A DNA stretch of 64,000 nucleotides from Sphingomonas radiodurans (GTDB lineage Bacteria; Pseudomonadota; Alphaproteobacteria; Sphingomonadales; Sphingomonadaceae). Numbering within the stretch: the stretch's first letter is position 1; each line of letters opens with the position of its first letter. The position numbers were made by a program, and so were the translations under genes. The notes beneath the pieces were generated by a model. It was given only the letters and a program-made list of their open reading frames with translations, searched no databases and was not told the DNA's origin. Below are positions 49,608 to 54,777 of the stretch, piece after piece. The stretch spans positions 620,001 through 684,000 of the forward strand of contig NZ_CP086594.1 in assembly GCF_020866845.1 (NCBI RefSeq). The letters are read 5' to 3'.

Positions 49608-52600
49608 TTAATTGTGCGGCTGCAAATAATAGGATTGAAGCGGCCTTACTTCAAGGTCGCGCGTACCTGACGTGATTGCCTTCGCCACCTGAATGCTTGC
49701 CTGAGCGGTGGTGAAATAGGGAATCTTCTGATTCACCGCCGAGGCGCGGATCGGCTGCGAGTCCTTCAGGCTCTGCCACCCTTCGGTGGTGTTGAAGATC
49801 AAACCGATGCGCCCGTCCTTGATCCGGTCGACGATGTGTGGCCGGCCCTGCGCCACCTTGTTGACCCGCTCGACCGGCACGCCGGCGCGCATTAGATGAT
49901 CGGCCGTGCCCCCCGTGGCGACGATGGTGAAGCCAGCATCGGCGAGATCGCGCATGGCAGGAACGATCGCTGCCTTGTCGTCGTCCTTCACGCTCACGAA
50001 CACCGCGCCGCCGGTCGGCAACACATTGCCCGCAGCGAGCTGCGACTTGGCAAAGGCGGTGGTGAAATCGAGGTCGATCCCCATCACTTCGCCGGTCGAT
50101 TTCATTTCGGGCGACAGCACTGGATCGATACCGGGGAAGCGATTGAACGGGAACACCGCTTCCTTGACCGCGAAATAGTCGATCGCGCGGTCGATCTTGG
50201 GAAGGTCGCGCAGCTTCTCGCCCGCCATCACGCGCGCAGCGATCTTGGCGATCGGCGCGCCAATCGCCTTGGCGACGAACGGCACGGTTCGGCTCGCACG
50301 CGGGTTCACCTCGATCAGGTAGACCAGCCCGTCCTTCACCGCGAACTGAATGTTCATCAGCCCGCGTACTTCCAGACCGCGCGCCAGCAGCTCGGTCTGG
50401 CGCTCGATTTCGGCGATGATCTCGGGCGGCAGTGAATAGGGCGGGATCGAGCAGGCGCTGTCGCCCGAATGGACCCCCGCCTCCTCGATATGCTGCAGCA
50501 CGCCCGCGACCACCACGTCATCGCCATCGCAGAGCGCATCGACATCCACTTCGATCGCGTCGCGAAGATACTGGTCGATCAGCACCGGTGCGTCGCCCGA
50601 CACCTGTACCGCAGTCTGGATATAATCATCGAGCTGCGCCGGGCCGTCGACAATCTCCATCGCGCGCCCGCCGAGCACGAAGCTCGGCCGCATCAGCACG
50701 GGGTAGCCGACGCGCTCGGCGACGCGCAGCGCCTCGTCGCGGCTTCGCGCCATCCCGTTCTTCGGCTGGAGCAAGCGCAGCCGGTCGATCAGCGCGGCGA
50801 ACTGCTCGCGGTCTTCCGCCAGATCGATCGCCGCCGGCGACGTGCCGAGGATCGGGATCCCCGCCGCCTCCAGCGCGCGCGCGAGGTTCAGCGGCGTCTG
50901 CCCTCCGAACTGGACGATCACACCGACCAGCTCACCGCGACTCGCCTCGACATGCAGGATCTCGAGCACGTCCTCGGCTGTAAGCGGCTCGAAATACAGC
51001 CTGTCGGACGTGTCGTAATCGGTCGACACCGTTTCAGGGTTACAATTGACCATGATCGTCTCGAAGCCCGCATCGGCCAGCGCGAAACAGGCATGGCAGC
51101 AGCAATAATCGAATTCGATCCCCTGCCCGATCCGGTTCGGCCCGCCGCCCAGGATCACGATCTTGCGCCGCTCGGTCGGCTGCGATTCGCACTCGGGCTC
51201 GCCGAAGCTCGGCCCCTCGTACGTCGAGTACATATACGGCGTCTTGGCGTCGAACTCGGCCGCACACGTGTCGATCCGCTTGAAGACAGGCCGCACACCC
51301 AGCTTCACGCGATGCGCGCGGACTTCCTCTTCCGTCACGCCGCCCGTCATCGCCTTCACCGCTTCGTGGATCAGACCAGACCCACGCGCGATGCCGCGCT
51401 GCATCCCGCGCAGGTTCGCCGATTGCAGCGCCAGCCACGCGAGGCGCTTGTCGCTGAACCCCATGCCCTTCAGCCGCCGCATGCCCGGCGCGTCGATCGG
51501 CAGGCCGTTCGTCATCACCTCGTTCTCGGCCGCGACGATTTCGGCGATCCGCTCGAGGAACCACGGATCGTACTTGGCGATCGCGTGGACCTCGGCGACG
51601 GTGAAGCCCTCGCGCAATGCCTGCGCCGCCACCAGCAGCCGATCGGGCGAAGCGACCGCAAGCGCCGCCTCGATCTCGCCGCGCGGCGCGCCGATCAGCC
51701 GATCGACATGGTTGAAGCCGGCCAGCCCCGTCTCGAGCCCGCGCAGCGCCTTCTGCATCGATTCATGGATGTTGCGACCGATCGCCATCACTTCGCCGAC
51801 GCTCTTCATCGCGGTCGACAGCACCGCTTCGGCGCCCTTGAACTTCTCGAACGCGAAGCGGGGGATCTTAGTGACGACATAGTCGATCGTCGGCTCGAAC
51901 GCCGCGGGCGTGGCGCCGGTGATGTCGTTGATGATCTCGTCAAGCGTGTAACCGACCGCCAGCTTCGCCGCGACCTTGGCGATCGGGAAGCCCGTCGCCT
52001 TCGAGGCGAGCGCCGAGGAGCGCGACACGCGCGGGTTCATTTCGATCACGATCAGCCGGCCATCCGCGGGATTGACCGCGAACTGCACGTTCGAGCCGCC
52101 AGTCTCAACGCCGATCTCGCGCAGCACCGCGATGCTGGCGTTGCGCATGATCTGATATTCCTTGTCGGTCAGCGTCAGCGCCGGCGCGACGGTGATCGAG
52201 TCCCCAGTATGGACGCCCATCGGATCGATATTCTCGATCGAACAGATGATGATGCAATTGTCCGCGCGATCGCGGACCACTTCCATCTCATATTCCTTCC
52301 AGCCGAGCAGCGATTCCTCGATCAGCACTTCCTTGGTCGGCGATGCGTCCAGGCCCTTACGGACGATCTCGAGGAATTCCTCGCGGTTGTACGCGACACC
52401 GCCGCCGGTGCCGCCCAGCGTGAACGATGGACGGATGATCGCCGGCAACCCGACCTTGTCGAGCCCTTCGAGCGCCTCCGCCTCGCTGTGCGCGATCGCC
52501 GAGCGCGCGCTTTCCAGCCCGATCCGGTCCATCGCGTCGCGGAACTTCAGCCGGTCCTCGGCCATGTCGATCGCGTCAGCATCGGCGCCGATCATCTGGA

Positions 52601-52937
52601 CGCCATATTTCTCCAGCGTACCGTCGCGGAACAGCGCCAACGCGGTATTGAGAGCGGTCTGTCCGCCCATCGTCGGCAGCACCGCGTCGGGGCGCTCCTT
52701 CGCGATGATCTTGGCGACGATCTCGGGCGTGATCGGCTCGACGTACGTCGCTTCCGCGAGTTCGGGATCGGTCATGATCGTCGCAGGGTTCGAATTCACC
52801 AGAACGATGCGATAACCCTCCTCGCGCAACGCCTTGATCGCCTGCGTGCCCGAATAATCGAATTCGCACGCTTGGCCGATGACGATCGGCCCCGCGCCGA
52901 TGACGAGGATCGAGGAAATGTCGGTGCGTTTAGGCAT
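49608..52937 (-). CDS. carB: Carbamoyl-phosphate synthase large subunit
   Basis: 1109 residues in two homologous ATP-grasp halves plus a C-terminal allosteric MGS-like domain. [30 protein letters not shown] opens the protein; [17 protein letters not shown] in the first half and [16 protein letters not shown] in the second mark the two carboxyphosphate/carbamate sites; [19 protein letters not shown] begins the allosteric domain. It makes carbamoyl phosphate for arginine and pyrimidines. It is separated from carA by an RTX gene fragment on the other strand. Confidence 0.97.
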
Positions 52938-53511: not shown

Positions 53512-54777
53512 CTACCGCCGCAGGTCGCTGACGAACCGTTCGAACAGATAGAAGCTGTCTTGCGGCCCGGGGCTTGCCTCGGGGTGATACTGGACGCTGA
53601 ACGCCGGTCTGTCGGTCAGTTCGAGCCCGGCGTTGCTGCCGTCGAACAGCGACACGTGCGTCTCGCGCGCATTCGCTGGCAAGCTCTCGCGCTCGACCGC
53701 GAAACCGTGGTTCATGCTGGTGATCTCGACCGCGCCGTCCGACAGCCGCTTGACCGGATGGTTGGCCCCGCGGTGGCCCTGAAACATCTTCGTCGTCCGC
53801 GCGCCGACCGCCAGCCCGAGCAATTGGTGCCCGAGGCAAATGCCGAACATCGGCTTGCCCGTGTCGAGCAGCTGCCGGATCACCGGCACGGCATATTCGC
53901 CCGTCGCGGCGGGATCGCCGGGGCCGTTCGACAGGAAGATGCCATCGGGCTCCAGCGCCATAATCGTGTCGTAGCTCGCCTCGGCGGGCACCACTGACAC
54001 CTTCGCGCCGGCCGCAACAAGACTGCGGAAAATGTTGTGCTTGCTGCCATAATCGATCGCGACGACGTGTGGTCGGCCGCCGGCATCCTGTCCCTCGACT
54101 TCGCTCGGGACGGACGGGTCGGATGTGTCATCTTCTTCACCGTTCGTGCCGAGCGAAGTCGAGGCCCCATAGCCAAACCCCAGCCGCCACACGCCGCCAG
54201 CACCGTCATCACCCCACGTCCCATGCGTTTCACGGGTCACTTGCTTGGCGAGGTCCATCCCCTCCAGCCCGGGCCAGGCCCGGGCGAGCCCCAGCAGGAA
54301 ATCCACATCGAACGTCCCGCTCGCGGAATGCGCGATCACCCCGTTCGGCGCCCCGCCGCCGCGAATGCGCCGCGTCAGCGCGCGGGTGTCGATGCCGGCG
54401 AGCCCGATCCGCGTATGGCGCTTCATCCAGCCGTCGAGGTGCTCCACCGCGCGGAAGTTCGACGGGCCGGTCGGATCCTCGCGCACGATCATGCCCAGCG
54501 CATGCGGCTCGTCCGCCTCGACGTCGTCAGGGTTGGCGCCGACGTTGCCGATGTGCGGGAAGGTGAAGGTGATGATCTGCCCGGCGAACGACGGATCGGT
54601 CATGATCTCCTGATAGCCAGTCATTGCGGTGTGGAAGCACACCTCGCCCGCCGCCTGCCCCTCGGCGCCGAACCCGCGCCCCCACAAGACGTCGCCCGAA
54701 GCGAGAACGAGCACGCCGGTGGCGCCATCTGGAGCAGGTCGACTTTGGGGCGCGTGCGAGGGCTTGGCGTCGGCCAT
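53512..54777 (-). CDS. carA: Carbamoyl-phosphate synthase small subunit with a palindromic insert
   Basis: 421 residues. The N-terminal domain (VLASGDVLWGRGFG, FHTAMTGYQEIMTDPSFAGQII, GIDTRALTRRIR) and the class I amidotransferase (catalytic Cys in MFGICLGHQLLGLA, His/Glu in VQYHPEASPGP) are intact. It supplies ammonia to CarB. The linker between the two domains holds an extra stretch of about 24 residues (TSLGTNGEEDDTSDPSVPSE...) encoded by an inverted-repeat element at 54093-54164 in frame. I use the ATG at 54777 (MADAKPSH); an in-frame start at 54894 is upstream. Confidence 0.95.
   Translation of the reverse strand: MADAKPSHAPQSRPAPDGATGVLVLASGDVLWGRGFGAEGQAAGEVCFHTAMTGYQEIMTDPSFAGQIITFTFPHIGNVGANPDDVEADEPHALGMIVREDPTGPSNFRAVEHLDGWMKRHTRIGLAGIDTRALTRRIRGGGAPNGVIAHSASGTFDVDFLLGLARAWPGLEGMDLAKQVTRETHGTWGDDGAGGVWRLGFGYGASTSLGTNGEEDDTSDPSVPSEVEGQDAGGRPHVVAIDYGSKHNIFRSLVAAGAKVSVVPAEASYDTIMALEPDGIFLSNGPGDPAATGEYAVPVIRQLLDTGKPMFGICLGHQLLGLAVGARTTKMFQGHRGANHPVKRLSDGAVEITSMNHGFAVERESLPANARETHVSLFDGSNAGLELTDRPAFSVQYHPEASPGPQDSFYLFERFVSDLRR
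54093..54164. repeat. 72-bp palindromic element inserted in frame within carA
   Basis: Arms of 24 bases (54093-54116 and 54141-54164), differing at only two or three positions, flank a 24-base loop. The length is exactly 24 codons. The arms carry CTCGACTTCGCTCGG and its complement CCGAGCGAAGTCGAG, a sequence style found in sphingomonad intergenic repeats. Its translation is the polar linker of carA that has no counterpart in ordinary CarA. Confidence 0.75.

Follow-up and report, generated by a model that had tools for sequence, protein, structure and literature searches.

The carA gene of Sphingomonas radiodurans, which codes for the small subunit of carbamoyl-phosphate synthase, contains a palindrome within its reading frame. 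This raises the question whether a mobile palindrome has colonised a coding gene without breaking it, as reported for the Rickettsia palindromic elements (RPEs), and, if so, why it settled at this place. RPEs are described as dispersed palindromes of about 100–150 bp lying in frame within genes (PMC10969869, PMC3767692), and orthologous Rickettsia genes have been reported to carry RPEs of different families at one and the same locus (PMC3767692). The authors of the latter work weigh an insertion hot spot against the common origin of one diverging insert and lean to a common origin. The analysis started from a stretch of 64,000 nucleotides (referred to as the window) and was extended to the whole genome and to related bacteria.

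Structure of the palindromic element in carA

The gene was located at positions 53512–54777 on the minus strand of the window. It encodes a protein of 421 amino acids including the insert, with its start at M-A-D-A-K of P0001 and a TIGR01368 match above the cut-off. The interdomain linker (residues 204–234; 54076–54168, minus strand) measures 93 nt or 31 codons here, compared with 21 nt in the empty loci L008–L011 and with the 7 and 8 codons found most often in the loci read. The net gain of 72 nt corresponds to exactly 24 codons, the number given in the original prediction. E. coli CarA could be aligned to residues 21–190 and 237–417, so that the insert sits, as anticipated, between two aligned CarA domains. 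The AlphaFold model of CarA cannot place it (mean pLDDT 62.6, with low confidence at residues 171–232 among other stretches).

The element had been described as an in-frame palindrome of 72 bp, composed of two 24-base arms and a 24-base centre. Its palindromic nature, its frame, the 72-nt gain and the arrangement of inverted arms around a centre were verified, but the dimensions had to be revised: the full element comprises 78 nt (54090–54167, unstranded), each arm is part of a complete repeat unit of 28 nt, and the centre separating the units has 22 nt (54118–54139, unstranded). Unit 1 (54090–54117, minus strand) has a stem of the GTCCC/GGGAC type and unit 2 (54140–54167, plus strand) one of the GTGCC/GGCAC type; both show one mismatch to the pattern and together they form an inward-facing (TT) pair. 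An inverted-repeat search detected a single inverted pair within carA, with arms at 54093–54117 and 54140–54164 that are 92% complementary at a spacing of 22 nt. Folded as RNA, the element reaches −44.8 kcal/mol (z = −5.4), and none of 200 shuffled sequences was equal or better. The reading frame of carA stays open through the whole palindrome.

The element as a member of a dispersed repeat family

The repeat unit, CCGTTCGTSYCGAGCGMAGTCGARRSAC, belongs to a dispersed repeat which we termed family A. A search with its inner 26 bases and up to three mismatches revealed 38 forward and 36 reverse copies, 74 in all, across the genome of 3.68 Mb, while the reversed-pattern control yielded 0 and 0. 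Changes in one half of the stem are matched in the other (GTCCC..GGGAC, GTGCC..GGCAC, GTGTC..GACAC), and the units are organised in 34 pairs with units within 150 nt and in six single units. The arms had been thought to look like a sphingomonad intergenic repeat, and the genome-wide count agrees with this; the arm is not unique to carA, and copies are present in at least four more genes. A palindrome arisen by chance or low complexity was ruled out by the z-score of −5.4 and by the 74 copies against a control of zero. The proposal that an intergenic palindrome colonised carA is supported, among other things by the dispersed arms and by relatives with empty linkers. The carA copy is, however, no plain copy of the intergenic element: 33 of the 34 pairs face outward (HH) and the sole inward pair is that of carA. 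Since the usual pair is outward, the inward order is not predicted by a simple insertion and counts against it.

Short stem-loops of the CGTC type (CGTC-1 to CGTC-4, Di Nocera et al. 2013) are common in Alphaproteobacteria, including sphingomonads (PMC3733652). According to this source these repetitive extragenic palindromes (REPs) form mostly outward (HH) pairs and are mostly intergenic, with some inside genes, and no dedicated transposase is known for them. Their features are a CGTC tag, a stem of 8–9 bp with complementary A-T at positions one and two, a loop of 4–5 nt and mostly a CCA-like tail. The outward orientation of most family A pairs resembles these families. In contrast, the start of the family A unit varies between CGTC and CGTG (CGTS), its stem lacks the initial A-T, a CCA tail is missing and the carA copy is an inward pair. 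With the CGTC families taken as described there, an assignment of family A to CGTC-1 to -4 was rejected on account of tag, stem start and tail. The same paper reports intragenic REPs for several species (among them S. alaskensis), recB hit at about one site in two Xanthomonas species, and some REP families that sit inside defined palindromic targets; the term “carbamoyl” is absent from its main text. The open-access literature provided no earlier account to the point of such inserts for carA or Sphingomonas.

The GTAG REPs and REPINs of RAYT (TnpA-REP), as described, share with family A the paired short palindromes dispersed in the genome, but the family A unit carries no GTAG tag. A search for RAYT-type transposases (Y1_Tnp, PF01797) gave no hit in this genome, whereas it was positive in five of 14 control genomes, and a RAYT-driven REP was discarded as a candidate for lack of this Y1 transposase. 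MITEs (BOX, ERIC and others) are non-autonomous inverted-repeat elements able to fuse with genes (reviewed in PMC10969869). The in-frame fusion of an inverted-repeat element to a gene recalls such MITEs as described there, although the carA element is far shorter, and no target duplication was recognised by eye between flanks that have diverged. A close parallel is offered by the RPEs, at least as far as published descriptions, the sole basis of this comparison, can be set beside our data: in both cases a palindrome lies in frame in a conserved gene, keeps the frame open and is missing from some orthologs. Differences are the size of 78 bp compared with about 100–150 bp, and the hosts of RPEs (rickettsial/Wolbachia), which are obligate intracellular.

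Distribution of long carA linkers

The linker is empty in the two nearest relatives found, P0010 (93.3%) and L008 (93.0% outside the linker), as well as in P0012 (91%). In P0002 (91% identical) the corresponding place is filled by a family A insert of greater length, and in P0003 (91%) by an apparently degraded one. The insert is therefore present only in some relatives, as had been expected; neither do all close relatives carry the same residues nor is the arm confined to carA, with 74 units in the genome. Because of the family A insert at the same place in P0002, the window’s insert may be common to both by descent.

For a survey at a broader scale, 397 genomes of the window’s family (taken as Sphingomonadaceae from its named relatives) and 289 genomes of Alphaproteobacteria were searched with E cut-offs of 1e-50 and 1e-30; CarA matches were obtained in 379 and 222 of them, respectively, 218 of the latter lying outside the family. 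The match was split at the linker in 48 of 379 family genomes, while among the 218 matching Alphaproteobacteria from outside the family four gave two matches (Fisher p = 1.3e-6), all of them assemblies of at least 90 contigs. CarB, encoded next to carA (window 49611–52937), served as neighbour control for split matches. By a count made by eye, 35 of 194 genomes gave at least two CarB matches. Eighteen of these 35 genomes were examined and contained no insertion: in 17, about 26–35 query residues around 503–538, which the CarB of the window possesses, were missing (genome gap of at most 12 nt), and G052 showed a broken frame. A split match alone was consequently rejected as proof of insertion, and the CarA splits were read as DNA.

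Linker DNA was read at 158 loci, comprising the first 80 loci fetched (15 of which had linkers of at least 84 nt), 30 unsplit and 47 split loci and the window. In this set, which is enriched for long linkers, 63 loci had linkers of at least 84 nt and 92 had linkers of at most 39 nt. All long linkers except one were a multiple of three and free of stops (62 of 63). The exception, L185 (G039:C22:23900-25700), is 178 nt long, is interrupted by stops, includes one N and contains a stretch that is repeated; it represents either a broken insertion or an assembly fault. A significant hairpin (z below −2, 60 shuffles each) was found in 59 of the 62 remaining long linkers, with a median z of −6.75; among genomes with a split CarA match, 46 of 47 folded linkers form hairpins (the 48th, L185, was left out). 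Hairpins were not significant in L012, L070 and L176. L012 is a family A linker of 105 nt that has kept its frame (z = +0.6) and reads as a case of an old copy which decays while the frame stays.

These data bear on the view that the linker simply grew by low-complexity indels or acquired a chance inverted repeat. Indels usually fall in linkers, and two of the long linkers, L070 and L176, lack a palindrome. The fold of the window’s element, the 59 of 62 palindromic long linkers and the 74 copies against none in the control speak against it, and for the carA insert it is refuted by the dispersed copies; as a general explanation we regard it as extremely improbable.

Unrelated palindrome families at the same site

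At least three unrelated repeat families are held by carA linkers. Among the fillers, family A and its subfamily D begin alike with CCGTTCG; the others are family B, which is GC-rich (CCCCTCCCGCNNGCGGGAGGGG and its variants), family C and, in L158, yet another palindrome. A, B and C are unlike in sequence. The labels were assigned by regular expression on the peptides followed by correction by hand. Family A is dispersed in all 16 G genomes with a pattern-found carA copy (7 to 262 units, carA copies included) and the palindrome of family B in 42 of 48 genomes. Family D was present in ten of ten chosen genomes, with only two units in the window’s own genome. The family C insert of L184 fits, by reading of its DNA, the CGTC-1 features as described (PMC3733652). 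In one genome whose linker (L157) is of family B, a rare inward family A pair lies about 1 kb upstream of carA (G369:C1:2590435-2590528).

The occupation of the linker changes between nearly identical proteins. When repeat-free linkers of up to 21 residues were scored as empty, different linker states were observed in 40 row-disjoint CarA pairs with at least 90% identity outside the linker. The best pair, P0054 (D) and P0113 (empty), is 99.7% identical there, followed by examples such as P0017 (A) and P0029 (B) with 98.7%, P0061 (D) and P0079 (B) with 97.1%, and P0052 (B) and P0104 (empty), likewise with 97.1%. This replacement of unrelated families by each other in proteins of up to 99.7% identity distinguishes the inserts from the RPEs as described. 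On the DNA level, the flanks of L168 (A) and L171 (B) are 91–94% identical while the linkers are wholly different, the junctions of L183 (D) and L186 (A) almost coincide in DNA of 94–95% identity, and L062 presents a clean empty site against L060. Inspection by eye of L060/L062 and other pairs, the flanks of which have diverged, gave no recognisable target-site duplication. A CarA tree without the linker was calculated with 227 rows, 225 of them labelled (L070 and L176 being the unlabelled ones), from 263 entries minus P0001 and P rows of at least 98.5% with the same label (14 P rows left out). It requires a minimum of 76 changes when six states are distinguished and of 49 when occupied is set against empty; the minimum per family is 34 for A, 27 for B, 16 for D and 6 for C, whereby parsimony is blind to gain versus loss and to insertion versus allele recombination.

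One ancient insertion into an ancestral sphingomonad carA, the insert later diverging, undergoing gene conversion with copies elsewhere in the genome and being lost repeatedly, would account for the common site, for the single reading frame of all 24 family A inserts, for the inward order in most carA family A copies and for the fact that related loci (L026/L031, L170/L177) have long linkers filled by one family. But the sequences of A, B and C are unlike one another, and each of A, B and D occurs in dispersed copies in the genomes searched, which marks the families as separate repeats and not as stages of one; the families change places between proteins that are 97–99.7% identical elsewhere; and the hairpins are mostly strong and hence little decayed. 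As an account of the linker as a whole we judge such an origin improbable, and it may be true of part of the inward family A copies.

Copies in other conserved genes

Open frames across 40 family A sites were listed and 18 of those frames were scanned with Pfam. On the basis of these sequences, at least five family A sites of this genome, including carA, are situated in conserved genes. The gene for the alpha subunit of propionyl-CoA carboxylase (PCCA; L211, C1:1304683-1304739) carries an in-frame copy read as Q-A-P-F-V-P-S-E-V-E-G-Q-G-A-S-T-L-L-G-T-N-G. Further in-frame copies were found in a cysteine desulfurase gene (L088, C1:112223-112303) and in a siroheme synthase gene (L003, C1:2720564-2720589), the latter with one unit and a second, decayed one. 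A gene for an ImuB-like Y-family polymerase (L227, C1:1599738-1599839) has a family A pair inside it; about 250 low-complexity residues separate the N-terminal stretch of this protein from its polymerase domain, and the pair falls within them.

In the PCCA loop, palindrome-type peptides of five families occur in 88 of the 120 homologs listed, as classified by regular expression: 48 of family A, 17 of B, 15 of C, five of D and three of a further repeat family, besides 30 short loops and two others. Swaps are seen here as well, P0178 (A) and P0208 (C) being 99.5% and P0202 (C) and P0219 (B) 99.4% identical. Two further repeat-like peptides, of the type L-H-H-D-A-A-R-R-G-P-P-P or A-K-Q-S..R-S-A-R-N-D-D, fill the PCCA loop of P0132 and of P0128, P0145 and P0163 and may represent additional dispersed families. 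Among 120 cysteine desulfurase homologs, inspected by eye, about twelve loops belong to family A and two to family D, and most are short. Thus at least two more of the five genes, those for PCCA and the cysteine desulfurase, contain recurrent landing loops.

The distribution among genes also touches the question whether the carA linker is a preferred target of a mobilising enzyme common to several palindrome families. The inserts cluster within a few codons past the conserved G-Y of the linker, L183 and L186 share nearly the same junction in a background of 94–95% identity, and a preference for defined palindromic targets is reported for some REP families (PMC3733652). The junctions vary, however, by several codons, loops of PCCA, cysteine desulfurase and siroheme synthase are also hit, unrelated families would need one enzyme, and the search with PF01797 found no such enzyme. 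Targeted insertion appears rather unlikely, if somewhat less so than a single ancient event.

Another explanation is that the inserts are retained because the mRNA hairpin or the longer linker is useful, for instance by slowing the ribosome between the domains. The unrelated peptides have only the hairpin in common (59 of 62), and the position is a domain boundary. On the other hand, the linker is empty in a large number of relatives (it measures at most 39 nt at 92 of 158 loci, in a set enriched for long linkers), L012 has kept its length and lost its hairpin, and the copies in PCCA, cysteine desulfurase and siroheme synthase lie within or near the edge of matched domains and not at a boundary of this kind. 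We consider an adaptive role improbable, to about the same degree as the ancient insertion.

A more speculative thought is that certain sphingomonad loops are standing exchange sites, in which a resident fragile hairpin is repeatedly replaced by an unrelated palindrome in the manner of a cassette swap in CarA, PCCA and other proteins. Such an exchange predicts the pairs P0178/P0208 and P0202/P0219 in PCCA as well as the nearly identical L183/L186 junction in carA. It is a tentative idea which we do not favour; if true, it would amount to natural mutagenesis of linkers by selfish DNA.

Reading frame, charge and orientation

The family A unit is permissive for translation: all six frames are open in two unit types, and among five variants a single one is interrupted by a stop, in one frame. 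By pattern, 24 family A inserts with 24 forward and 23 reverse units were identified in carA. All of them are read in the same frames, as P-F-V-P-S-E-V-E-G and S-T-S-L-G-T-N. The frames used are acidic or near neutral, while of the four remaining frames three give basic peptides in every one of the five variants. When 360 proteins from three families were scanned by regular expression, no peptide of these four frames turned up. The ImuB-like polymerase reads its copy as V-R-V-E-Q-S-R-D and S-L-D-D-A-R-D-E-R, two frames that none of the four other genes uses. This protein breaks any strict rule that would confine family A to the polar frames, so that the rule is at most a strong bias. The use of one frame reads as selection against basic frames, to which shared descent may have contributed in part.

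With regard to orientation, both units were detected in 22 carA inserts, 15 of which are inward and seven outward, and two more inserts have one unit. None of the 33 remaining pairs of this genome is inward, and against them the 15 of 22 carA inserts give p = 1.4e-8, the rows not being independent. Both unit orders occur in cysteine desulfurases. A hypothetical source of the inward order in carA would be an intermediate that was circular and had been opened within the spacer.

Origin and significance of the inserts

The carA element is a dispersed in-frame palindrome that is missing in some near relatives and is one of several unrelated palindromes at this linker. In our preferred reading, to which we assign a probability of about 0.78, a dispersed pair of units likely inserted into carA as a REP-like mobile element, and the linker was likely refilled repeatedly, since in-frame additions would be tolerated there. 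The proposed parallel to Rickettsia, a mobile palindrome in a coding gene with its frame unbroken, is thereby supported by the dispersed arms, the empty relatives, the open frame and the other genic copies, from which we infer mobility. The elements would arrive by a copying process of the REP type. Since no Y1/RAYT transposase was found in this genome, it has to be supposed that the mobiliser was lost, belongs to an unknown kind or works in trans. Selection would purge insertions elsewhere in carA and those in harmful frames, whereas the short linker would let stop-free, polar readings survive; such tolerance is the presumed cause of the repeated filling. Old copies would then decay by ordinary mutation with the frame kept. 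We predict that the inserted peptide extends the linker neutrally, or almost so, and serves no function.

In-frame palindromes in genes as such are already known from the RPEs of Rickettsia and from intragenic REPs, as described in the works cited. New is the recurrent and interchangeable filling of one loop by unrelated families. This bears on the question raised for Rickettsia, an insertion hot spot versus one diverging insert (PMC3767692), because the divergence of one insert hardly yields unrelated families in proteins that are otherwise 97–99.7% identical.

In-frame palindromes in genes are best known from Rickettsia. Many sphingomonads are cultivable. Together with the many sequences at hand, this makes the origin of protein loops from selfish DNA, the rules of tolerance (site, frame, charge) and the mobiliser accessible to testing.
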